In this document: piece after piece, positions 1-12,809 of the stretch
Numbering within the stretch: the stretch's first letter is position 1
Layout of the letters: every line of letters begins with the position of its first letter
Assembly (NCBI GenBank): GCA_029262375.1
Contig: JAJCZM010000044.1
Location: 186,001-250,000, forward strand
DNA length: 64,000 bases
Origin: Deltaproteobacteria bacterium
Lineage (GTDB): Bacteria; Desulfobacterota; Binatia; UBA1149; SPBQ01
Direction of reading: 5' to 3'
Position numbers and translations under genes: made by a program
Notes under the pieces: model-generated
The model's input: the letters and a program-made list of their open reading frames with translations, nothing else
Told to the model about the DNA's origin: nothing
The model's database searches: none

Positions 1-172
1 CGATTGGGACGCCATGCAATTGCTCGGGGGGACCAGGTAGCTCGTCCCCGCGATTCTGAGCAAGCCGAGCAGCGTTGGCACTTCCTGCGTACCGACCTGC
101 CAGGTCTGACTTCCGTGGACTGGCCCACCCCTCGAAGTCGATCCGGTCATAGGCCTCCGACACTTGGTTCAT
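1..172 (-). CDS. partial hypothetical protein cut by the left edge
   Basis: The frame starts at an ATG (complement of 172..170) and runs off the left edge without a stop, so only about 57 codons are visible. The N-terminus begins MNQVSEAYDRIDFEGW, which I do not recognise. It starts 11 bases after the stop of the zinc-finger gene on the same strand. That gene in turn overlaps the excisionase-like gene, so all three probably form one leftward operon of the integrated element. In elements of this layout the next gene is often a replication protein or integrase, but nothing visible proves either. Confidence 0.5.
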   Translation of the reverse strand, partial: MNQVSEAYDRIDFEGWASPRKSDLAGRYAGSANAARLAQNRGDELPGPPEQLHGVPI

Positions 173-183
173 ATCGTTGCTGT

Positions 184-708
184 TCACAGCTGCACCCCCA
201 ACACACGGAGCACATATCGCCGACGCTTCTGATCCAGAGAGCTCCCGCCGATCTCATCGACCGCACGCTCGAGGCTACGAACTAGATTAAGCAGGGTAGC
301 GCGCTCCCCCATATCGCTCGCGTCAAGAAGCTCGTTGCGCTTTTCTCGTCGGAGAATCGCGAGAAACACCTGCAATTCTGCCATCTCCCGGTCCATCCGA
401 CTGAGCGTCCGGGTAGCGGTCGATGCCTGAGGTCGCTGCCAGCGACTAGGACGTCCGCGTCGAGCTGAATCGAGACCGAGACTCGAAAGAATCTCATGCC
501 AGGCGCACTGTCTTGCGAAACAGTGGAGTAGTGGAACTCCGGAGCTTCCCAGACGCAGAACAAGCGAACTCAGATTGCTCCCGCCATGAGCAGTGCATCG
601 ACCGCGCACCGAGCCATCGGCCCGTCGACTCGCACCGACTCGGAACATTGCTTCCTCAATCTCTGCGAAGGTAGGTGTACCCGCAACCAGATCTCTGTAC
701 GCGGTCAC
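184..708 (-). CDS. CHC2-like primase-type zinc-finger protein of a mobile element
   Basis: A 174-residue protein if read from the GTG at 708..706. That GTG overlaps the TGA of the upstream HTH gene as GTGA, the usual sign of translational coupling, so I prefer it to an ATG further upstream at 771. Residues 38-79 resemble the zinc finger of phage and plasmid primases: C38-x2-H41, then a short beta-rich stretch, then HCFARQC (C63, C68), followed by a helix ending SLGL. The second Cys pair is spaced one residue wider than the usual phage form. The rest is a charged helical tail; no TOPRIM or helicase domain is present, so it cannot be a full primase. It probably binds DNA or assists replication of the element. 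Confidence 0.6.
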   Translation of the reverse strand: MTAYRDLVAGTPTFAEIEEAMFRVGASRRADGSVRGRCTAHGGSNLSSLVLRLGSSGVPLLHCFARQCAWHEILSSLGLDSARRGRPSRWQRPQASTATRTLSRMDREMAELQVFLAILRREKRNELLDASDMGERATLLNLVRSLERAVDEIGGSSLDQKRRRYVLRVLGVQL

Positions 709-923
709 AACTGACCGCCTCGGCCAGGTTCCCGACCATCTTTGGCGGACGCGGCGCGCGTCGCTATCCACTCCACTAGCGCGTGGCGGGGGACTCTCAC
801 CGCTCGACCATCTCGGATTGAGGGCAGTTCGCCGCTCGCTACGAGTTCGTAAACCCTTGCCCGGCTGAGACCAAGACTATCGGCGACCTCCGGGATTCTC
901 AGAAGTAGTTTTTCTGCTGTCAT
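705..923 (-). CDS. excisionase-like helix-turn-helix DNA-binding protein
   Basis: A 72-residue protein with the compact MerR/excisionase-type winged helix (HTH_17). Residues 8-45 read as a helix-turn-helix (IPEVADSLGLSRARVYELV) followed by a wing (GELPSIRDGRAVRVPRHALVEWI). The family includes Xis recombination directionality factors and small element repressors. A strong ribosome site (GGAGGAAG) sits just before the ATG at 923..921. It is the first gene of a leftward operon and its stop overlaps the next gene by four bases. The divergent zinc-ribbon gene starts about 114 bases away, so this protein may regulate that shared promoter region. Excisionase versus repressor cannot be decided from sequence alone. 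Confidence 0.7.
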   Translation of the reverse strand: MTAEKLLLRIPEVADSLGLSRARVYELVASGELPSIRDGRAVRVPRHALVEWIATRAASAKDGREPGRGGQL

Positions 924-1036
924 TGGACTTCCTCCTCTCTCTATTCAGGTCCGTGACCATCGAGTATCGAGTGGTCGTTGTGCGTACCCTAGAGCCGTCA
1001 CTGGTCCGGTCGCCAGGATCAGAATATGACGTCGCT

Positions 1037-1990
1037 ATGACGCGACCACGTGGGCCAGTTCCGTTGTGGGAAATCGAGGGCGAGCTCTGGTCGACGCCCG
1101 GAACGGTCGAGAGGGTCCACGATGCGGGTGGCTGGTTCGTTCCTCACAAAGTGTGGGCCGAAGCGGACACTGTCTATTGGCGCGGAACTGACGATTGGCC
1201 TCCAAGACTTGGTAGCTTCGTGGCTACAGGCAAACCGTCCCTAGAGAGATTCATGGGTCTTGAATCCGCGTCAGCCTCACGCATCGCGAGCTTTGCGCGA
1301 AAGTGGGGCGTCATGCTGATGGGTCAGCAGGGAGTTCCCGTCCGCCGGCGAGGCAATGATTCCGCAGACCCGTTTCTGCAGAGTGCGACAACACGAGTTG
1401 CAATCGCTGATTTTGAGCTTCTGACCGACGATCATCGGCTTTATATGGAGCCGGCGGTCCACTGGCGGACACTTGCGAAAAGAGCTCGTTGTGTACTGAA
1501 CCTCGCCACTCGACTGCGCCAAGAGAGACCCGGAACTCGCGAAGACTGGGAGGGGGCAGTTGTCTATGGCGTGAGCGAGGAGGACGTTGAGCAACTGGGG
1601 TCGACCGCCTGCGCGAGAATCACGTCAAGCCTTCCCTCGATCACCGACTGCCCGATGGATGTTCAGCGCGCATTGCTGATAGGCCTGCTAGAAGACTGGA
1701 TCGACCGCGGCGCTGTACTCCCATCAATGACGTGGGTCAGAAGCGGACCAGAATTTGGTGTGAAGAGTTTCACTTTGTTCGGTGCAATTGGCCTCCAGCT
1801 CTCGCTAGCAGTCGGCAAACTGGACGGGTACGCAACCTGCTGCGGATGCGGTACGGCGTATGCCCCATCCCGCAAACCCCGAGCAGACCAGCGCCGTTAC
1901 TGCGGCGATTGCCGAGAGGAGGGCATCCCACAACGCCACGCCGCCCAACAGTATCGACTACGCCGGAAACGACCCGATGATCGCAGCTAG
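1037..1990 (+). CDS. hypothetical protein with C-terminal zinc ribbon
   Basis: I chose the ATG at 1037 (317 residues). An upstream TTG at 923 would overlap the start codon of the divergent HTH gene. Most of the protein is an unrecognised mixed alpha/beta region rich in Trp and acidic residues. The last 50 residues form a probable zinc ribbon: CCGCG, then YCGDC, ending in a very basic tail (QYRLRRKRPDDRS). Tails of this kind occur in CGNR-type and other actinobacterial or phage DNA-binding proteins. It lies between the excisionase-like operon and the Gabija genes, so it is cargo or a regulator of the element. I cannot name a function. Confidence 0.6.
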   Translation: MTRPRGPVPLWEIEGELWSTPGTVERVHDAGGWFVPHKVWAEADTVYWRGTDDWPPRLGSFVATGKPSLERFMGLESASASRIASFARKWGVMLMGQQGVPVRRRGNDSADPFLQSATTRVAIADFELLTDDHRLYMEPAVHWRTLAKRARCVLNLATRLRQERPGTREDWEGAVVYGVSEEDVEQLGSTACARITSSLPSITDCPMDVQRALLIGLLEDWIDRGAVLPSMTWVRSGPEFGVKSFTLFGAIGLQLSLAVGKLDGYATCCGCGTAYAPSRKPRADQRRYCGDCREEGIPQRHAAQQYRLRRKRPDDRS

Positions 1991-2197
1991 CCAGCCAAGT
2001 GGAGACGTCAGCGCGCCGGGAACTGAGCACGGTCGCGGGTCCTTCCCTGGGGCAGCCCCCATCGCAGGTATTAGAAGCGCAACCAGTCCGCCGATTTGTC
2101 GGCGAAAAGTACCTAAACATCAGCACAATCGCGGGGCGCTCGGACCTTCGCGGAGCTGGCGCAGTTTTCGAAAAGCAGCAAGGGTTAAGGATCGCCA

Positions 2198-4000
2198 ATG
2201 TCCACAGGACTGATGATTGTAGAGGTGAGAATCCGCAACTTTCGCTGTCTGCGGAGTGTTGACCTGCGTCTCGGCCAACAGACGATTCTTGTGGGGGAGA
2301 ACAATGCTGGGAAGACTAGCGCACTTCACGCTCTGAATGTCGCCCTTGGTACCGGAGCGCGCAGGTCATCGGACTCCGACATTTATCTTGCGCCTACCGA
2401 GCAGCGTGCGCCCCGCGATCGCAAGGCCATAATAGACATTCTTCTCAGGCCTACCGACGATGACGGTAAGCTCGTTGACGAGTTTCCCGGCAGCGGACAA
2501 TGGCTCGCTCATTTCGGAAACGCGGTATCGCAGGATTCCGCGGGAGCCGATCAGGTCGTTCTACGAGCCGAGCTCGCATGGAGTTCTCAGCGGAGCGAAT
2601 TTGAGCTGTCGCGATGTTTCTTAACCGAGTGGAAACAGGACGGCGACGAAATCGATAAAGTGACTCCTGTCGTCGGCGCAGCGGTCAGTCGCTCTGTAAT
2701 CGAGGCGATTTCTCTCTCATACATCGATGCCAACCGAGATATCGTCGCAGAGTTCCGCAGCGGTGGTACCTATTGGCGGAGGCTAGTAGCCAATCTTGGG
2801 CTCAGCGACAAACTGATTTCCGACATCGAAGGTCAACTCGATGAACTGAACAAGAAACTGTTGGCAGGCAGCGACGTTCTCACACACCTTGAGACGCATC
2901 TTGCAGATCTTTTTCAAGGCGCGACTGCTGGCTCTCATTCGGTATCCATCGCGCCAGTACAGCCGCACCTGCGTGATCTAAGTCGCGGAGTTGAGGCGCT
3001 GATCTCAACCGAGGGCGGCCCATCGTTCCCACTTGAGGCGCAAGGAATGGGTACGCGTAGCTTGGCCGCCCTGCTCACGTTCCGCGCTTTCATCGATTGG
3101 CGAGTAAAAACGCTCAAAGCTGCCGCACTACATCCGGTGGTAGCGATTGAGGAGCCGGAAGCCCACCTTCAACCACAGTCGCAGCGCGCGGTTTTCGAGC
3201 AGCTCAAGGGACTTCCGGGACAGTGGATAGTTAGCACACATTCGCCGTACATCTGCAGTCAAGGCGATCTGGGTGACTACCGAGTGTTCTTCAAGGAGGG
3301 CGGCGAAACTTCGGTCCGTGAGCTCAACCCTGAACTTGCCGAACTCGATGCTGAGGACGTCAGGAAAATCCGCCGCCAAGTGCTAAATACGAGAGGCGAG
3401 ATGTTGTTCTCGCGGGGACTCGTACTCTTCGAAGGCGAGACTGAGGAACAGGCCATCCCAGAGTTCTGCGCACGACACTTCAAGAAGCACCCTTTCGTAC
3501 TCGGACTAACACTTATAGGAGTCGGCGGATCGGGTGGCTATGGCCCATTTGTCAGACTCGCGAAGACGTTCGGCATCCCATGGTGGATCTTTAGCGACGG
3601 AGAGGACGACGCTGTTAGTAACGTCGATACAGCGCTCGCTAAACTCGACGAAAAGCCAGTCGCCGCTAACCCGAGGGTTGTGAAGCTGCCAGACGGGAAG
3701 GACTTCGAGTCTTATATCTGCGACGAAGGTCGACATGAATCAATTATCGAAGCGCTGCTAATAGAAGAAGCCAGCACTCCCCAACACGAAGCGTCTCTCC
3801 GCAAAAAGTGGCGCGACGATGATGATCCAGTTTCTAGTCTCATAGAGAAACTACAAAACGGGAAGACGAGATACGCCCCGCTGGTCGTGAGCGCTCTCGA
3901 GAAAGAAGAAATGCCAGAAAGGCTTCACTCGCTGTTTACACGTATCGCTAACGAGCTAGGCTATGTCGATAGTGAGCCATCATCCAATGCGCCTATCTAA
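2198..4000 (+). CDS. gajA: GajA-like OLD-family ATPase/TOPRIM endonuclease (Gabija defence)
   Basis: A 600-residue protein with the two-part layout of class 2 OLD nucleases. The N-terminal ABC-type ATPase has a Walker A at 33-40 (GENNAGKT), a Walker B near 314-320 (VAIEEPEAH) and a switch His near 345 (IVSTHSPYI). The C-terminal TOPRIM domain shows LFEGETEEQ near 410, the acidic SDGEDD near 465 and a Lys in LPDGKDFE near 497. GajA of Bacillus cereus VD045 has this architecture and a similar length. GajA nicks DNA and is held off by nucleotide in uninfected cells. The next gene is a UvrD-like helicase overlapping its 3' end, which is the Gabija arrangement. Its codons use more A/T at third positions than the surrounding chromosome, consistent with transfer. 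A start at 2213 (MIVEVRIRNF) is also possible. Confidence 0.87.
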   Translation: MSTGLMIVEVRIRNFRCLRSVDLRLGQQTILVGENNAGKTSALHALNVALGTGARRSSDSDIYLAPTEQRAPRDRKAIIDILLRPTDDDGKLVDEFPGSGQWLAHFGNAVSQDSAGADQVVLRAELAWSSQRSEFELSRCFLTEWKQDGDEIDKVTPVVGAAVSRSVIEAISLSYIDANRDIVAEFRSGGTYWRRLVANLGLSDKLISDIEGQLDELNKKLLAGSDVLTHLETHLADLFQGATAGSHSVSIAPVQPHLRDLSRGVEALISTEGGPSFPLEAQGMGTRSLAALLTFRAFIDWRVKTLKAAALHPVVAIEEPEAHLQPQSQRAVFEQLKGLPGQWIVSTHSPYICSQGDLGDYRVFFKEGGETSVRELNPELAELDAEDVRKIRRQVLNTRGEMLFSRGLVLFEGETEEQAIPEFCARHFKKHPFVLGLTLIGVGGSGGYGPFVRLAKTFGIPWWIFSDGEDDAVSNVDTALAKLDEKPVAANPRVVKLPDGKDFESYICDEGRHESIIEALLIEEASTPQHEASLRKKWRDDDDPVSSLIEKLQNGKTRYAPLVVSALEKEEMPERLHSLFTRIANELGYVDSEPSSNAPI

Positions 4001-5864
4001 TAAACAGCGTCGAATTGTCGAGCACGACGAGGGCGCACTGCTTGTAGTCGCCGGCCCCGGGGCTGGAAAGACTCGCGTCCTAACCGAGCGAGTTAGAAGA
4101 CTTCTGAGCAAGAAGGACGCCAACTATCGCGTACTCGCGTTGACGTTCACTAATAAGGCCGCAAGCGAGATGAAGGACCGCTTGAAGAACAACGAAAGCG
4201 TATCGCAGCGCTCCTTTATTGGAACGCTCCATGCGTTTTGCATGGAAGTGCTAGCGAACCGTGGGCGACCCGTCGGCATCGAGGGGCTGCCGAACATATT
4301 CGAGTCATTCCAAGACCGGAGAGCACTCCTACGTGAGGCCATCGATCTAGACGCAGAGCTGAGATTCGCGCTTGCAGAGCGAGGCGACCATCGAGCGCAA
4401 GAGAGCACACTATACCGCTGGATGCAGGATATCTCAGAGTGGAAGCGCAATCTCACTCTCCCCTCGATGCTCACAAAAGACTTTGATCGGCGCATCTACG
4501 AAGCCTACAACGCGCAGCTGGCGGCATCCGGCGGGGTAGACTTCGACGACCTCCTTCTATTGACCTACAGGCTCTTTGAAGAGAATCCGCAGGCGGCCCG
4601 ATTCTACCGCCGACAGTATCGGTATATCTGTATTGACGAAGCGCAAGATCTAAACGAGGCACAGTATCGTGTACTCTGTGCACTCTGCACGGATCAACAT
4701 CGGAACGTCATGCTAGTCGGTGACCCCAAACAAGCGATCTACACGTGGAACGGGGCAGACCCGAAATACCTCGACCTTTTCGTAGAGGACTTTGAGGCTG
4801 AGACGACGGAACTGAATGAGAACTTTCGTAGCTCTCGGGCCGTAGTTCATGCCGCGCAAGTGCTGGAAAGCAACTACGAGGTCGCGGGTCAGCTACCGAT
4901 ACAAGGGGACGTACTTCTTCAGCCTTGTGATGATGAGGAGGCCGAAGCCGAGTTCGTAATTGAGACGATCGAAGAGCTTCAAGAAAACGGGCATCAAGAC
5001 ATCGAAGGCCCCATAGACCTCGGCCGAATAGCCGTGCTGGGCCGCAATCGCTTCGTGTTCGACGCCTTGTTGCGGGAGCTCGAGCGAGTCGGGATTCCAT
5101 ACTACCAAAAGATGTCTGCTGCTTCGCACGAGTTCGTGTCTGACGTCGTGCAAGAGTTCCAGCTAGCCCTTCGGATCGTAGCGAACCCGCATGATCGTCT
5201 TCACCTAGGCATGCTTTGTTCGCGGTGGAAGCTACCATCTGAGGTCGAAGGCCTAAGAGCGCGCTTTCGCGATGAAGAGCCGCGCACGGTTCTACACGAG
5301 GCCGCGAAGACCGCCCGCGGCGGCAATGCGGCAGTAGTGGCAGAGGCAATCATTGCGGCCGTTGACGACGACTCGAACGTTATTCTACCGAACGGCCTAG
5401 CGGTGTTGGTGGGAGACTCGACCTCTCGTCCGATAGAGGAACGCGAGTTTATTGCGCGCGACATCCAGGAGTGGGAAGACGCGTGGAAGAACTACCTTCG
5501 CTCCACAACTGGCGGGTCGCAACAACTGGCGAGTTTTCTCAGTCACGTGGCGCTGGGAACAACCGAGCAGGCCTCTAGAGAGGGACTCGCTCTGATAACC
5601 GTGCACTCCTCAAAGGGAATGGAGTTCGACGTAGTATTCGTTATTGGCATGTCGCGGGGTACGTTCCCAGACTATCGTGCGAAAAGTCCAAAGGAGTTGG
5701 CGGAGGAGCGGCGAAACGCGTTTGTGGCCTGTACTCGCTCTCAGCGATTGCTCTACGTCTCGTATCCACGCGTAAAGCTGATGCCGTGGGGCGATAGCAG
5801 ATCCGTCTCGCCATCGCCGTTCTTCACCGAGCTTGCCGATGCGTTTGGCAACACCGCAGAATAG
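3987..5864 (+). CDS. gajB: GajB-like UvrD/Rep superfamily 1 helicase (Gabija defence)
   Basis: The start at 3987 (MRLSNKQRRIV) gives 625 residues and a 14-base overlap with gajA. An ATG at 3963 would add eight residues. SF1A helicase motifs are complete: Q-motif near Q7, Walker A at 22-29 (AGPGAGKT), TFTNKAASEM, DEAQD at 217-221, VGDPKQAIYTWNGA, ENFRSS, VHSSKGMEFD near 539-548 and FVACTRSQRLLYV near 580. In Gabija the helicase partner works with GajA in one complex and responds to DNA ends or nucleotide depletion. This copy is longer than the 494-residue GajB of B. cereus VD045 and carries the 2A/2B-type regions of a full UvrD. A housekeeping UvrD/PcrA is less likely because those run well over 650 residues and do not overlap an OLD gene. 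Confidence 0.85.
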   Translation: MRLSNKQRRIVEHDEGALLVVAGPGAGKTRVLTERVRRLLSKKDANYRVLALTFTNKAASEMKDRLKNNESVSQRSFIGTLHAFCMEVLANRGRPVGIEGLPNIFESFQDRRALLREAIDLDAELRFALAERGDHRAQESTLYRWMQDISEWKRNLTLPSMLTKDFDRRIYEAYNAQLAASGGVDFDDLLLLTYRLFEENPQAARFYRRQYRYICIDEAQDLNEAQYRVLCALCTDQHRNVMLVGDPKQAIYTWNGADPKYLDLFVEDFEAETTELNENFRSSRAVVHAAQVLESNYEVAGQLPIQGDVLLQPCDDEEAEAEFVIETIEELQENGHQDIEGPIDLGRIAVLGRNRFVFDALLRELERVGIPYYQKMSAASHEFVSDVVQEFQLALRIVANPHDRLHLGMLCSRWKLPSEVEGLRARFRDEEPRTVLHEAAKTARGGNAAVVAEAIIAAVDDDSNVILPNGLAVLVGDSTSRPIEEREFIARDIQEWEDAWKNYLRSTTGGSQQLASFLSHVALGTTEQASREGLALITVHSSKGMEFDVVFVIGMSRGTFPDYRAKSPKELAEERRNAFVACTRSQRLLYVSYPRVKLMPWGDSRSVSPSPFFTELADAFGNTAE

Positions 5865-6226
5865 CCACCTAGCTCTATCCGCACGATATCCCGCGAACCA
5901 ACCTAGAATCTCGCGTGGCTACCTGCTGCCACGCGCAAATAGCTGACTGGCATCAAGAGTCGATACCCTGCGTGTTGCTGGCGACAGTGGATCGTAGGCT
6001 GCTTGCTCAAGAGAATAATCGACGCCCTGCTATTCAGCCACGCGGCTCTTCAACTGCTGCAGTATCGCTTCAGTCCGTCTGCGGACAGGCGCGTCTCCCG
6101 TTGGAACGCGAGGACTTGGCCACCGTGCCGAGAGGACTGAAAATCCACGTGTCGGTGGTTCGATTCCGCCCCTGGGCACCACCTTCAACGCGCGCAAACT
6201 CGCCCCAGCTTGCCTCTCGCCGACTG
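5865..6226. other. gene-free right end of the integrated element
   Basis: No coding frame here looks real. The small rightward frame at 5915-6343 reads through the tRNA fragment and has no domain or codon pattern. The stretch holds the gajB 3' flank, the tRNA-Phe 3' fragment at 6134-6181 and 45 bases of chromosome before the stop of the next gene. No clear terminator hairpin was seen. Confidence 0.6.
6134..6181 (+). repeat. 3' fragment of tRNA-Phe, probable att site of the element
   Basis: These 48 bases match the 3' part of a bacterial tRNA-Phe. The anticodon loop CTGAAAA has anticodon GAA at 6139-6141. A variable loop follows, then a T-arm with stem GGTGG/CCGCC around TTCGATT, then the acceptor strand CCTGGGC, discriminator A and encoded CCA at 6179-6181. 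The partner 5' acceptor strand (GCCCAGG) and a D-arm are absent upstream, so this is not a whole gene. Integrases that target tRNA genes leave this scar at one end of the element. Its orientation predicts an intact tRNA-Phe and integrase gene to the left of the window. Confidence 0.85.
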
Positions 6227-8482
6227 TCATTGGAGACGTGCCTTAAGAAGCGTGTCGGTCTGCTTGATCACGGATTGAGGAGGGAACACCGCTTCCCACG
6301 ATCCGCCGCTAGTGACGTCCACGCGGACTGTCATCGGTGCTAGGAGGGACTGGAGTTGGGGGAGCGGAATGTTCGCGCCCTTGGCTTTGATGATGATCTT
6401 AGCCTTCCCGTCTGCGCCGGCCTTGAGAGTCATCTTCGACAGGAAAGAGTTCGGCTGAGTCTGGTTTCGGTCTTTGTACACGAAGCCGTTCTTCGTCGCC
6501 TTCCAACATGGATCGTTGCCGCAGACGGCACCGCCGGCGGCACTGGTGCACATGAAAGGAAGCTGCTGCCCGGATGATTGGTCGGACAGACATACGATGT
6601 ACGTGTCCTGCGTCTCGGGGTTTCCGAAGTCCGGCAAGGCGGTCATCTCTCCCAGCCACTTAAATGAGAGCCTACGCTTGTCCAGATCGTCGAGCCGCTC
6701 CTTGAGTAGTAACAGTGGGCGAAGGCCCTCGAGCGGACCGTGACAGCCGGGCTCGGGACTCGGCGCGCAGCCGACCGAGGCTTGGCATGAACGACACGCA
6801 GTGCAGACCGGTGCGGACTCGGTCGTCTCGCACACTCCCGCGATGCAACTCTCGTCGCCGTTGCACAACGTGCTGTCGCTACAGCTCGTCCCGTCGGGAG
6901 CGTCGCCGCCGCCCGCGCACACTGTTGCCAGACAGGTCTCCCCCACGGTACACGGGTCCGCGTCGTCGCAGGCGCCGCCATCGTCCGCCGTGCACACGGA
7001 AGGCTCACCGGCACAGGCGAAACACTGTTCGACGACACATGCTCCGGCGCAGCCGTCGCCATCGGCACGGTTGCCGTCATCGCATTCTTCGATGCCATTG
7101 AGGACCGCGTTGCCACACTCGAGCGAGCAATCCGCCGCACAGCCATCCTCGCCGACAACGTTCCCGTCGTCGCACTCCTCGGGACCCTCCATCAAGAAGT
7201 CGCCACAGAAGCCGTCGGCGATCGCGTGAACGATGTCGAAGTCGCCACCCGGCGGTGCGCTAGCCCAAGCCAGCACCCAGCGCCCCAGTCCGTTGGTAGC
7301 CAACAACGGCCCGAAACCAGCTGCGGCGATATCCTGTGTCGCAGTCCAGGAGACGCCGTCATCGAGCGAGCGAGCCGTGGAGATTCCGGTCGGAGTGTCC
7401 CAGGCGGCCAGCCAACGGTCGGATCCGTCGTACGCCAGTTGCGGTACTCGATCGCTGGCACCGGTAGGCCCATCGGTGGTTGCCGTTGCGTTGATCACGA
7501 GCGGCGCGGACCAGGTCACGCCATCGTCCGTCGAGCGGGAAACAAAGATATCGCTATCGCAGCCGGTCGTGCCGCCGGCCGATTCGGTATCCGACCAGAT
7601 AGCCAGCAGCGTATCGTCGCCTCGCACGAGTTCGGGCGCGCTCGCTATTCCGGAGGAACAGACGTCCGGTGAGCTGCTCGTATTGATCGTTACCGCGCTG
7701 CTCCAGGTGTCGCCGTCGTCGGTGGAGCGTGAGACTAGTATCTCGCCGTCCGACGACGAGGCACCGTATCTCACCCAAACGAGAACCCAGTCATCACCGA
7801 CTACAACGAGTTGAGGTGCACTGTCGCGGGTCCCCGCGGGGCGCGTCACGCCATCGATGAAGATGTGGTCGGTCCAGTGCAGGCCGGAATCCGTCGAGCG
7901 TGCGACGACAACGTACGGGTCGGTACTCGTGTCGGTTACGTAGTGTTCCCAGGTAACGAGCCAAGTGCCTTCGGAGTCCGTGGCGACATCGGGACGCTTC
8001 GCAATGCCGGAGCCGTAGACGAGAGTGGAGTCCACAGGAAGCGGCAACGACCAAATCGCGCCGTCGTTGCTCGAGTAGGAAGCGAGCAAACGGGACCCGG
8101 GTGTGAAGAAGTAAGAATGCCATATGGCCATCCATCCACCGGCACCATCGGTGGCAATGGATGTGAATTCATCGGGAGTTTGACCGTCGGCAATCGCCGA
8201 TACATGGATGAGAAAGGGAGCACCCCAAGTCAGACCGCCATCCATAGATCGCGAGATCAGGATGTCCTGATCGGGGCCGGCCGGCCCGCCGAACTCTTCG
8301 GTGCTCTCCCATGCAGCGACCCAGACTGCACCGTCCGTCGCGAGAGTTACTCCCGTGTCGTTTCCGCTGTCGGTCGTTGCGTTGGTGTTGAGGAAGCTCG
8401 CCGCCCCGAACTGCTGCGCGTTGGCGGCGCCCGAAAGACAAGCGAAGAGAATGACAAAGACGAGTGCGAAGTAAGATCCCAT
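6227..8482 (-). CDS. secreted sialidase-fold (Asp-box) protein with Cys-rich repeats
   Basis: A 751-residue exported protein. I start it at the ATG 8482..8480, five bases after GGAGGGG; the longer frame to 8509 has no ribosome site. Residues 1-22 are a signal peptide ending AANAQ. Residues about 25-420 carry at least six Asp-box motifs of the form S-x-D-x-G-x-T-W (SMDGGLTW, STDSGLHW, STDDGDTW, STDDGVTW, SLDDGVSW), the signature of a BNR/sialidase beta-propeller. Two ECDDGN Cys-rich repeats (DUF4215 type) and further Cys-rich modules follow. The last ~150 residues (TYIVCLSD, PCWKATKNGFVYKD, KAKGANIPLPQL) match the tail of two other secreted proteins in this window. Catalytic sialidase residues are not evident, so binding or a structural role is more likely. 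Confidence 0.8.
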   Translation of the reverse strand: MGSYFALVFVILFACLSGAANAQQFGAASFLNTNATTDSGNDTGVTLATDGAVWVAAWESTEEFGGPAGPDQDILISRSMDGGLTWGAPFLIHVSAIADGQTPDEFTSIATDGAGGWMAIWHSYFFTPGSRLLASYSSNDGAIWSLPLPVDSTLVYGSGIAKRPDVATDSEGTWLVTWEHYVTDTSTDPYVVVARSTDSGLHWTDHIFIDGVTRPAGTRDSAPQLVVVGDDWVLVWVRYGASSSDGEILVSRSTDDGDTWSSAVTINTSSSPDVCSSGIASAPELVRGDDTLLAIWSDTESAGGTTGCDSDIFVSRSTDDGVTWSAPLVINATATTDGPTGASDRVPQLAYDGSDRWLAAWDTPTGISTARSLDDGVSWTATQDIAAAGFGPLLATNGLGRWVLAWASAPPGGDFDIVHAIADGFCGDFLMEGPEECDDGNVVGEDGCAADCSLECGNAVLNGIEECDDGNRADGDGCAGACVVEQCFACAGEPSVCTADDGGACDDADPCTVGETCLATVCAGGGDAPDGTSCSDSTLCNGDESCIAGVCETTESAPVCTACRSCQASVGCAPSPEPGCHGPLEGLRPLLLLKERLDDLDKRRLSFKWLGEMTALPDFGNPETQDTYIVCLSDQSSGQQLPFMCTSAAGGAVCGNDPCWKATKNGFVYKDRNQTQPNSFLSKMTLKAGADGKAKIIIKAKGANIPLPQLQSLLAPMTVRVDVTSGGSWEAVFPPQSVIKQTDTLLKARLQ

Positions 8483-8732
8483 TGCGCCCCTCCGACACAC
8501 GATGATCACCTAGAGCGCCACCTATACCAAGCCGTCACGGTCAATAGTACGCGTTGCCGTGCTGTAGCGTAGCCGGCGCCTGCCCCCGTATGGGCCGACG
8601 TACGACACCGAATCGCAGTTTCCGTCCCCACTGGCCTCGGCCATGCCGCCCCGAAATACTGCGGGGCAACAACAGCGACTTCGTCTGCAGCAGACATTCT
8701 CGAGACGGGGCGATGTCGCGTGAGGGAACACC

Positions 8733-11471
8733 ATGGCCAGACCTGGTATTGTCGTCTTCCTCTCCCACCTATTGATGGGAACTGCGGTTGCTCCCGCATT
8801 CGCTCAGCAACACGCAACTGCAATCTTTACAACCGGCCTGGCCGACGCACATGTCGGTAGCGAACTGGTTACGAGTTCACCGCCTGGGCTATCTGGCAAA
8901 ACTTTCTTCTTCTTCCACACGCCGAGAGTGAGCCCGGACGGATCCGCGTTCGGCTTTCTATCGTTCGTCACACCGGGCGATGGCGATGAAGACGAGGTCC
9001 TGGTGATCGTCAAATCTCCAGAGGCGGCGCTACGCGTCGGCGCCGCGCTGACCGCCGGCGATTCCATCAGTGCGGTCGTCGAGGGCACGACCGGATTCTC
9101 CGACGCGTCTGGAGACGTCGTGCGCTCGATGGATACTAAATTCGGATTGAACGACAACGGCTGCTACGCGGTGAGCGCCCGAGGCAATCCGTCGAACGAC
9201 GACGTCATTGCGAAAGGCTGCGAAGGCGACCCGCTCGCCGTGATGGCGCGCGAGGGCGAGGAGGTTCCCAATCTCGGCGGCCCTACTTACTTGAGTTCAG
9301 CGCGCGAACCTCAACTAGACAACAACGGCGTCGTGTACTTTGGGCAGGACACGAGCGAGTCTCCCGGCAACCGCTCCGTATTCCAGACAACGAACGGCGC
9401 CGACACCGTGCGGCTCGTACAAGAAACGGTGACCGAGTTCGGCGGGGCGAGCGGCGGCGGAACGAGAATTTTCGAGAGCCTCGACAACGAGTTCAGCCAA
9501 TCCCGCGGCGGACTGCAGGTCTCCGGCGATGGGCAACAGATTCTGCTTCGCGGCGACCTCACTGAGGATTTCGCCAGCGACGACTTCGCGGGTGTACTGG
9601 CACCGACGCCAACCATCGTTCACCAAGAAGCCACAGTCGTCGATCCGGTCTTTGCCGCAACGAGTGTCGCCAACAGCCCGACGGCGAGCTACCTGTCGGG
9701 CGACGGTCGCTGGTTCTTGCGTGGGACCAATACGGACGCCGCCCATTGGATCGTCGGCGAGAACGGCGTCGTTGCGAAAACGGGAGACGAGATCATCGCG
9801 GGCACCAACGAACACTGGACGACCTTCTTCGCCTTTCACGCGGGCGCCGACGGCGACTTCGTGATCGGCGGCACCAGCGACAGCACCGACGAGCCTCTAC
9901 TTGTCTACTATCCGCCGGCGTCGCCCCCGAACGTTCGATCCGGACGGCGGGCCTCGCTCCCGATCGAGACCGCCATCGTCGTCGCACGCAAGGATGACGA
10001 CATCGATCTCGACGGTGACGGACAGATCACGGCGCAGGATGCCCGCATCGACGCGTTCGGCAGCGACGACGCCGTCATCGTCAAGCGCAACGTTGTCAAC
10101 GACCCGCTCGCGGAGGTGATTGCGTTCATCGTATTCCAAGCGACCACCTGCACGGGCACTTGCGAGGGCAGCATGAGCACGACCGGTACCGTAATCGCAG
10201 AGTACCCGGCAACCATGGAAGTCGAATGTAGCGAAGACACCGACTGCGAAGCGCAGGAGACCTGCGAAAAAGGAACCTGTGTACCGATCTGCGGCAACGG
10301 CAGATTCGACACCGGCGAAGGCTGCGATGACGGCAATCTGACACCCGGCGATGGGTGTGACGGCGCGTGCAGCGTGGAATCCTGCTTCTTCTGCAACGTA
10401 GTGGTCGAGCCGTCGCAGTGCTCGGTCAACGTCGACGACGATTGCAGCACCGACGACGATCGCTGTACGTCACTCGGCACGTGCAACGCCAACGCAGATT
10501 GCGTGGGCGAGGCCCCTATCGATTGCTCGGATCTCGACGACGGCCAATGCCTCGTCGGCCAGTGTGATCCAGCCGACGGCCAATGCCGGCCCGTGTTCAA
10601 TGAGGGCGCCGAATGCGACGACGGCGACGACTGCACGCTGGGCGACGTGTGTAGCGACGCCGCCTGCAACGGGGTCCCGAAAGACTGCAGCCAATTCGAC
10701 GATGCCGACAACTGCACGGTCGGAGTATGCCACCACGAGTTTACCGACGGCGACTGCGAACCCGGCAACGTCGCCGAAGGCACCCCGTGCGACGACGGCG
10801 ACGCCTGCACGGTGGACGATCGTTGCGACGACGAAATCGTGAGCGAGTGCCTCGGGCTTCCGCGTGACTGTTCACAGCTGGATAGCCAGTGCGCGCGCGG
10901 GGTCTGTCAAGCGTCGAACGGCGAATGTATCGCAGAAAACGTCGTCGTTTCGTGCGACGACGGACTACCCTGCACGCTCGAGGATGTCTGCGTCAACGGC
11001 GTTTGTAGCGGTCTCTCGGTGTGCGAAGGCGAGTGTGAGATTTGCACGGTTGACGGTTGCGTACGCCACTGCGGCGATCCCGTGAATCCGGGCGGCTTCA
11101 GCTTCCCCGGTCAAACGGTGGGCGCCCCGAGTGGTGCGCGTATCATCACGGCCGCCGATGCACTGCACTCGTTGCAGGCCGCGGTCGGACTCGTACCGTG
11201 CCCGCTGTGCGTGTGTGACGTGAACGACGACGAGACCGTGACGGCCTCCGATGCGTTGGCGATTCTTCGCCGAGCGGTCGGCCTACCGAGTGAGAACTTT
11301 TGCCCGATGGATAGCCCGACGCCGAGCACGACGACGACGTTGGCGAGCCCGCCTACCACAATGCCTGCCGGACCTGCCTGCATCGACGCCGTGCCGCCAA
11401 CCTGTGACGGCACCTGCGAGCAGGGGCAGTGTGTCGGGATCGACGCGGTCTGTTTCTGCCAGGGCCTCTGA
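8733..11471 (+). CDS. large secreted Cys-rich protein with dockerin-like repeats
   Basis: A 912-residue exported protein. The signal peptide spans about residues 1-25 (ending PAFAQQ). The N-terminal ~450 residues contain repeated elements of the type LNDNGCYAV and LDNNGVVYF, as in beta-propeller-like surface proteins. Then come an ECDDGN-like repeat (GCDDGNLTPGDGCDGACS) and a run of Cys-rich modules of the form CDDGDxCTxxDxC. Near residues 805-850 is a dockerin-like double repeat (ITAADALHSLQAAVGL and TASDALAILRRAVGL) separated by CPLCVCD. Unlike its relatives here, it continues past this into a Thr-rich linker and one more Cys cluster. It is transcribed divergently from the Asp-box protein across a 250-base gap. 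Confidence 0.78.
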   Translation: MARPGIVVFLSHLLMGTAVAPAFAQQHATAIFTTGLADAHVGSELVTSSPPGLSGKTFFFFHTPRVSPDGSAFGFLSFVTPGDGDEDEVLVIVKSPEAALRVGAALTAGDSISAVVEGTTGFSDASGDVVRSMDTKFGLNDNGCYAVSARGNPSNDDVIAKGCEGDPLAVMAREGEEVPNLGGPTYLSSAREPQLDNNGVVYFGQDTSESPGNRSVFQTTNGADTVRLVQETVTEFGGASGGGTRIFESLDNEFSQSRGGLQVSGDGQQILLRGDLTEDFASDDFAGVLAPTPTIVHQEATVVDPVFAATSVANSPTASYLSGDGRWFLRGTNTDAAHWIVGENGVVAKTGDEIIAGTNEHWTTFFAFHAGADGDFVIGGTSDSTDEPLLVYYPPASPPNVRSGRRASLPIETAIVVARKDDDIDLDGDGQITAQDARIDAFGSDDAVIVKRNVVNDPLAEVIAFIVFQATTCTGTCEGSMSTTGTVIAEYPATMEVECSEDTDCEAQETCEKGTCVPICGNGRFDTGEGCDDGNLTPGDGCDGACSVESCFFCNVVVEPSQCSVNVDDDCSTDDDRCTSLGTCNANADCVGEAPIDCSDLDDGQCLVGQCDPADGQCRPVFNEGAECDDGDDCTLGDVCSDAACNGVPKDCSQFDDADNCTVGVCHHEFTDGDCEPGNVAEGTPCDDGDACTVDDRCDDEIVSECLGLPRDCSQLDSQCARGVCQASNGECIAENVVVSCDDGLPCTLEDVCVNGVCSGLSVCEGECEICTVDGCVRHCGDPVNPGGFSFPGQTVGAPSGARIITAADALHSLQAAVGLVPCPLCVCDVNDDETVTASDALAILRRAVGLPSENFCPMDSPTPSTTTTLASPPTTMPAGPACIDAVPPTCDGTCEQGQCVGIDAVCFCQGL

Positions 11472-11597
11472 TACACGCAGGCCTTCGCGGCACGACTCGT
11501 CGCATGTTGGCAGGTTGGCATGCCGGGCTGTTGTCGGTTTCGATGCTTACTCCAGCTTCTGTTCCGTAGTTCGTCGCACTCGTGTAAAACGACGCCC

Positions 11598-12809
11598 ATG
11601 TCAGACCAGCTACACGTAGACCTACTGCCACAGTCCATTTGGGAAGAAGCTGTACCATATGAGGCGCTCGCACAATTGCGCCGCGAAGCGCCAGTGTACT
11701 GGCACGAGGAACCCGACGGTCCGGGTTTTTGGGCGATCACTCGTCACGCAGACATCAAGCAGATCTCGAAGGATCCGGGCCGGTTTTCCAGCCACGAGGC
11801 CGGCGTGTCGCGGCTCGACCTCACGGAGCCGATGGAGCTTGCCGCCTATCGCCAGGTCGTGATTGCGATGGATCCGCCCGAGCACGGCCAACTGCGCGGA
11901 CTCATCAGCAAGGCGTTCACGCCACGAGCAATCAATGGACTCGAGCCGGCAATCCGGGAGATCGCACAAAAAGCGATTCGCGCTGCCGTGGAGCGACGCG
12001 AGGTGGACTTCGTGCAGGAGTACGCTGCGGCCATTCCGATGCACGTCATCAGCGAGATGATGGGCGTCCCCGAAGACAAGAGTCTGCGCTTGGCGGAAAT
12101 GAGTTCCGCCCTCATCGATGACCAGGACCCGGAAATCGCGCCGACCGCAGACTCGCGCCAGAACGCCCAGATCGAGACACTGACGATTGCCATGGAACTC
12201 GCGCAACGCGAGTTGGCCGACCCGGGCGACAACCTGACTGCTCGGCTGCTGCAAGCGGAGTTCGAAGGTCGACGTCTTACCGAAGGCGAGTTTGGAATGT
12301 TCTTTCTGTTCCTGATCGTCGCCGGCAACGAGACCACACGCACGGCGATGACCGGCGGACTGATTACGCTACTCGATCACCCCGATCAGCTTGCCGCGAT
12401 TCACAACGACCCCTCGCTCATTCCGCGCGCTGTCGAAGAGACGCTGCGCTACTGGCCGCCGATCCACCATTTTCGCCGAACGGCGATGTGCGATGTCGAG
12501 TTGCGAGGCCGGCAGATTCGAAAGGGCGACAAGGCCCTCATGTGGTATCCCGCCGCCAATCGCGACGAGTCGGTATTCGACGATCCCGACCGATTCGACA
12601 TTCGGCGCACGCCGAACGACCACCTGAGTTTCGGTTTCGGCGAGCACTTCTGCCTCGGCGCCAGCCTGGCGCGACTAGAATTGCGTGTGATGTACGAAGA
12701 GCTCTTGAGGCACGTCAGCGAGATCGTGCCGCTCGCGAAGCCGCGTCGGCTGCGTTCCAATCTCATCAACGGCATCAAGGAAATGCGCGTTGAGTTGCGC
12801 CCGAAGTAG
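11598..12809 (+). CDS. cytochrome P450
   Basis: A soluble bacterial P450 of 403 residues from the ATG at 11598; a start at 11520 would add an untypical tail. I-helix motif AGNETT at 242-247, with the oxygen-activating acid and Thr. ExxR at 281-284 (ETLR). Heme loop FGFGEHFCLG with the thiolate Cys at 352. The PEHGQLRGLISKAFTPRAI region is typical of the CYP125/CYP142-like and related groups that hydroxylate sterols, terpenes or fatty acids. The substrate cannot be read from sequence. No ferredoxin or reductase gene is adjacent, so electron partners must lie elsewhere. It is followed by short tandem repeats and converges on the calcium ATPase gene. Confidence 0.92.
   Translation: MSDQLHVDLLPQSIWEEAVPYEALAQLRREAPVYWHEEPDGPGFWAITRHADIKQISKDPGRFSSHEAGVSRLDLTEPMELAAYRQVVIAMDPPEHGQLRGLISKAFTPRAINGLEPAIREIAQKAIRAAVERREVDFVQEYAAAIPMHVISEMMGVPEDKSLRLAEMSSALIDDQDPEIAPTADSRQNAQIETLTIAMELAQRELADPGDNLTARLLQAEFEGRRLTEGEFGMFFLFLIVAGNETTRTAMTGGLITLLDHPDQLAAIHNDPSLIPRAVEETLRYWPPIHHFRRTAMCDVELRGRQIRKGDKALMWYPAANRDESVFDDPDRFDIRRTPNDHLSFGFGEHFCLGASLARLELRVMYEELLRHVSEIVPLAKPRRLRSNLINGIKEMRVELRPK

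Follow-up and report, generated by a model that had tools for sequence, protein, structure and literature searches.

Bacteria trade immunity by means of mobile elements that carry anti-phage systems. The window, that is, the whole 64,000-nucleotide stretch analysed here (C44:186001-250000), begins with genes that include a Gabija pair and stand next to a piece of tRNA-Phe, which raises the question of whether these genes form such an element and where it starts. A sequence-only reading had proposed a small defence-carrying element with its right boundary at a 48-base tRNA-Phe 3′ fragment. The window lies in a 402-kb contig (C44) of a 4.8-Mb assembly, which comprises 59 contigs and is 87% complete.

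Sequence comparison showed that window 6134-6182 was identical over 49 bp to C44:183581-183629. This exact repeat consists of the 48 bases of the tRNA-Phe(GAA) 3′ end, including CCA, plus one base, and extends to 52 bp if one mismatch is allowed; an exact 49-mer pair within 10 kb is expected by chance at about 1e-21. The left copy stands at the end of an intact tRNA-Phe(GAA) (C44:183553-183628; Rfam tRNA, 72 bits) and lies 8,553 bp upstream of the right copy, attR. At window 6134-6182, no tRNA was called by ARAGORN (whole window) or Rfam (window 1-12000), and this copy was therefore regarded as a tRNA fragment. A leftward check set beforehand, namely a search for an intact tRNA-Phe followed by a tyrosine integrase, found both, the latter at C44:183564-184889 on the minus strand. 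The island is thus bounded by an intact tRNA and, on the opposite side, by the 3′ fragment of that tRNA, and it encodes a site-specific integrase that adjoins the intact copy. With both repeats, the integrase and Gabija found, the proposed element and its right boundary were upheld. The whole element (C44:183581-192182, approximately 8.6 kb) starts 2.4 kb to the left of the window and is larger than had been stated. As also noted from sequence alone, its genes use more A/T at third positions than the chromosome to the right: GC3 was 0.56-0.63 in the island ORFs, versus 0.67-0.76 in seven left-flank genes and 0.727 ± 0.030 on the right side (n = 24, minimum 0.650). Coordinates are summarised in Table 1.

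Table 1. Features of the element at tRNA-Phe. C44 = L009 + 174000; window = L009 - 12000.
Feature	Window	C44 or L009	Strand	Evidence or remark
attL = intact tRNA-Phe		C44:183553-183629 (tRNA: L009 9553-9628)	+	sequence
Tyrosine integrase		C44:183564-184889 (L009 9564-10889)	-	PF00589 1.8e-14; PHROG integrase 1.2e-40
Small HTH ORF		L009 10592-10957	-	overlaps integrase; perhaps real in first half only
RepA-like AAA_25 helicase, 407 aa	1..187	on left to C44:184964 (L009 10964-12187)	-	PF13481 1e-29 (full protein)
Candidate primase-type zinc-finger protein, 195 aa	184..771	L009 12184-12771	-	motif CTAH...HCFARQC read in sequence
AlpA/excisionase-like HTH, 72 aa	705..923	L009 12705-12923	-	TIGR01764 8.3e-13; HTH_17 3.7e-14; Phage_AlpA 2.9e-4
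Protein X, C-terminal zinc ribbon	923..1990	L009 12923-13990	+	likely start ATG at window 1037
gajA, AAA_15 ATPase + OLD-like TOPRIM	2198..4000	L009 14198-16000	+	PADLOC GajA 6.6e-175; PF13175, PF20469
gajB, UvrD/PcrA-like helicase	3963..5864	L009 15963-17864	+	PADLOC GajB 3.3e-223; PF00580 2.8e-62; overlaps gajA end
attR	6134..6182	L009 18134-18182	+	exact 49-bp copy of tRNA-Phe 3′ end
In-window part of element	1..6182			49-bp direct repeats and gene content
Left part of element, outside window		2.4 kb		tRNA-Phe, integrase, small HTH ORF, most of helicase

The genes form a leftward set (integrase, small HTH ORF, RepA-like helicase, zinc finger and AlpA/Xis) and a rightward set (X, gajA and gajB). 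The integrase gene, encoding a SAM-like core-binding domain and a catalytic domain, lies antisense directly behind tRNA-Phe. Relatives of the helicase were observed near tyrosine integrases in two other genomes, with 41% identity at L076 (G012:C1617), which also encodes a SocA/Panacea-domain protein, and 33% at L077 (G009:C16). Most of the gene calls made earlier from sequence held. The excisionase-like HTH matched the TIGR01764, HTH_17 and AlpA models, both Gabija genes were recovered by PADLOC, and the zinc-ribbon protein is a real ORF, here named X, to which Pfam, PHROGs, NCBIfam and PADLOC gave no match under the thresholds applied. The primase-type zinc finger is plausible from its motif, but the spacing is one residue above the usual and no match was found in the family libraries searched.

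GajA contains an ABC-type ATPase and a TOPRIM domain, its PADLOC match covering residues 5-588 of 600, and the UvrD-like helicase GajB adjoins and overlaps it, both models being matched over almost their full length. As in known Gabija systems, both genes are present, in order, overlapping and near full-length, and nothing notable differs in sequence. In Gabija, GajA cleaves DNA and GajB helps to sense infection; judged by family membership, the present pair would have anti-phage activity. GajA was present in only 3/148 genomes of the class, the host included, a rarity that fits horizontal gain of Gabija. A second gajA-gajB pair in the order was observed in G006 at a contig edge (L180, G006:C291), with a GajA 45% identical; this pair was not seen at tRNA-Phe and stands on another contig.

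The integrase ORF runs antisense through the att core and has its stop inside tRNA-Phe. In the integrated state it has 441 aa and ends in ...FSVHCSTN; at the computed junction of the joined circle, the same frame has 470 aa and ends in ...EAILQQLKSRVAE, which places attP inside the integrase reading frame. Because the ORF crosses the att core, integration should swap the C-terminal tail of the protein; the stretch concerned is short and sits far beyond the catalytic domain. In phage Mx8, attP lies within int, and integration creates a new int 3′ end with changed specificity (PMC6070905). The integrase gene described here would likewise gain a new 3′ end on integration. Unlike in Mx8, the tail is a short one beyond the catalytic domain, the ORF enters its target, the 3′ end of a tRNA, in antisense, and the exchange is predicted from the sequence. 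G030 offers a parallel, with an integrase ORF that stops inside tRNA-Glu.

The site was compared for left-hand synteny across 13 genomes of the order, with no other member of the host's family among them. All 13 have tRNA-Phe, and most show the gene row M16 peptidase - GDPD - PrmA - RsmE - GshB-like before it, some contigs ending too near the tRNA to show it. In the host, an Lnb_N-domain gene and an alpha/beta hydrolase gene lie between the GshB-like gene and tRNA-Phe. The right-hand neighbours vary among the order genomes, which leaves ancestral contiguity of both flanks unsupported. An alignment scan of the genome contigs with the GshB-like protein detected no same-family locus and was swamped by proteobacterial glutathione synthetases.

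A second tRNA-Phe fragment was found in only two other genomes of the order, G009 and G010, where 3′ copies with 45 and 46 bases identical to their own tRNA lie 6.1 and 7.5 kb downstream, respectively. The islands between tRNA-Phe and these copies (L079 6583-12722 in G009; on L080 in G010) differ in genes from the Gabija element. Beside the tRNA and in the same orientation, G009 has an integrase C-terminal remnant (PF00589, 1.5e-18) and G010 an 85-aa integrase C-terminal piece (2e-7, custom integrase profile). The G010 island encodes a KAP NTPase matching the candidate defence family PDC-S20 (2.3e-86) and an HNH protein. These islands with other cargo indicate that the tRNA-Phe site is used repeatedly. 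Together with the few occurrences of GajA, they also show that the host's genes do not stand at this place in all relatives. A class-wide search revealed one further isolated tRNA-Phe 3′ fragment, in G147. Also observed was a 21-base copy of the tRNA-Phe 3′ end approximately 60 bp downstream of tRNA-Phe in G003 (L081), possibly the scar of a lost insertion.

Taken together, the locus is very probably an integrative element of 8.55 kb that carries Gabija and used its own tyrosine integrase to enter the 3′ end of the host tRNA-Phe. This identification is based on the 49-bp repeat with the intact tRNA-Phe, the adjoining integrase, the Gabija pair and the lower GC3 inside, as well as on the rarity of GajA, the left flank kept order-wide at tRNA-Phe, and the G009 and G010 islands. 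Among the eight element proteins, no relaxase, type IV secretion, capsid, portal or terminase protein was recognised (Pfam, PHROGs, NCBIfam and PADLOC); the sole terminase-family match fell on the HTH of the AlpA-like protein, a segment matched better by excisionase models. The element proteins include no relaxase or type IV secretion genes of the kind that define an integrative conjugative or mobilisable element, and its gene content suggests that it is most likely integrase-dependent and non-self-transmissible. After excision, the circle may replicate transiently via the helicase/zinc-finger module, and AlpA, possibly with X, may control the expression or direction of the integrase. Transfer would proceed via a helper phage or conjugative element, a helper being needed because no transfer or virion gene was recognised. 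A resident element would protect the host through Gabija, and the tRNA would remain functional, its 3′ end being replaced by the identical one that the element brings.

Small size, an integrase, an AlpA-like regulator, a helicase with a candidate primase zinc finger and defence cargo would also suit a P4- or PICI-like phage satellite or a prophage remnant, packaged by a helper through hijacking genes and carrying Gabija as cargo against competitors; an integrase and an AlpA-like regulator are part of the P4 gene content. This reading is considered unlikely, since no capsid, terminase, packaging or capsid-size gene was found among the proteins, and no helper-packaging gene among them by Pfam, PHROGs or NCBIfam, although a satellite packaged without a gene of its own would still be compatible with that. 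Moreover, X and the helicase had no relative in viral contigs, integrase relatives there reached 21-24% identity only, and neither the zinc-finger protein nor GajA had relatives in phages.

It is very improbable that the locus is a fixed chromosomal defence locus lying by chance between tRNA-Phe and a stray tRNA fragment. The comparison, made at order level, revealed neither an excised form nor an empty site, as would be expected of a fixed locus, but the integrase at the predicted end, the perfect 49-bp repeat, the lower GC3, the rare genes and the parallel islands in G009 and G010 argue against it. Just as improbable is an assembly or binning artefact, by which the element would derive from another organism or the repeats would have been misjoined. 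The assembly is fragmented and incomplete, and one of its contigs, C55, looks like a foreign contaminant and also has a tRNA-Phe; against this, C44 is continuous through both repeats, and its left flank matches the order-wide tRNA-Phe neighbourhood. The integrative element carrying Gabija is accordingly the reading followed below.

Contig C55 (L010, G000:C55, 3159 bases) encodes RNase E/G, YacG, a slightly different tRNA-Phe and an integrase of another type, and presumably came from a proteobacterium. These genes speak against its being a second copy or a circular form of the element, a possibility that was weighed and dropped.

The closest system found in the literature is I23 of Pseudomonas fluorescens SBW25, which carries Gabija and belongs with I44 and I55 to a set of tmRNA-targeting elements (PMC12595487). 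Shared with these elements are the tyrosine integrase near one end, the AlpA-type regulator, direct repeats at an RNA gene, defence cargo and the lack of genes for autonomous transfer (PMC12595487). The present element differs in its target (tRNA-Phe instead of tmRNA), repeat length (49 instead of 14 bp), size (8.6 kb) and unrelated host group, and its transfer is a prediction. It also resembles P4-like satellites with defence hotspots (PMC9122126) in being a small integrase element with an AlpA-like regulator and variable defence cargo, but differs from them in that no capsid-size or packaging genes were recognised. It thus belongs to a known kind, the small elements that use a tyrosine integrase to occupy a tRNA and carry defence genes; what goes beyond the ordinary is that its tRNA-Phe site is used repeatedly, together with the predicted exchange of the integrase tail and protein X. 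For a poorly studied bacterial group, these results indicate that small integrase elements at tRNA genes serve as vehicles for anti-phage systems, and that a single tRNA-Phe site is occupied repeatedly with different cargo.

Homologues of X were collected by a single-sequence search of the class, which gave distant matches, extended by a three-sequence profile. A phylum-wide sample searched with the X profile added at least one further locus (G025) among the best six candidates per genome; loci known from the class search did not appear in its list, which makes it no measure of how rare X is outside the class. Nine loci were readable: the host (G000), G098 (two), G092, G074, G017, G030, G104 and G025. 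A tyrosine integrase was found near X in 9/9, as a raw count. At seven loci the two genes share a strand, with X immediately upstream and in most cases overlapping the longest integrase ORF; at the G000 and G030 loci, X is encoded approximately 2 kb away, on the opposite strand. At eight of the nine loci the 3′ end of a tRNA faces the integrase (Phe, Arg-CCT, Val-CAC, Glu-TTC (two), Ser-TGA, Glu-CTC and SeC), integrases beside tRNAs being common anyway, apart from X. G104 was absent from both X profiles, and its X-integrase arrangement therefore serves as an independent check, albeit with a weak X match in the class search (9.8e-6). An in-frame stop interrupts the X gene on G098 contig C370, and in G025 the C-terminal part alone is present. 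A tenth, weak match, in G032, is a broken gene that has a transposase as its neighbour and no integrase.

The cargo near X varies. Besides Gabija in the host, it includes an XhoI-type restriction enzyme, an Eco57I-type methylase and a Schlafen/AlbA_2 protein at tRNA-Glu in G030 (L200, G030:C34:2000-14000), an AriA/OLD-like ATPase near tRNA-Ser in G017 (L198) and an HsdR-like ORF, read in translation, near tRNA-SeC in G104 (L201), X being directly upstream of the integrase in the latter two. No flanking repeats were found at the other X loci, whose limits are undefined; only the Gabija element has them. X was also considered as a part of Gabija, an idea dropped on finding homologues that adjoin integrases without Gabija. 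No relative of X was found in plasmids; its G017 relative gave one weak plasmid match and no phage match. An AlphaFold2 model of X built from six sequences had a pLDDT of 50, and Foldseek returned no meaningful match with it, so the model was set aside. One relative matched zf-CGNR weakly (0.003), and by eye several members run on past the zinc ribbon into a possible helix-turn-helix.

On the simplest reading, position and motif point to X as a DNA-binding partner or regulator of the integrase. A wider proposal is put forward tentatively, as one that may well prove wrong: that X marks an undescribed, class-level set of tRNA-targeting, defence-carrying elements and also acts as a zinc-ribbon, in some members possibly HTH, DNA-binding integrase partner, i.e., a directionality factor or regulator of a new kind. 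X would then be a handle for recognising such elements whatever their cargo, and, lying upstream of integrases, it is a candidate partner or regulator of integration that can be tested.

Directly to the right of attR, window 6227-11471 encodes two large cysteine-rich proteins of secreted type with repeated ECDDGN-like motifs, the second of which also has a dockerin-like stretch.
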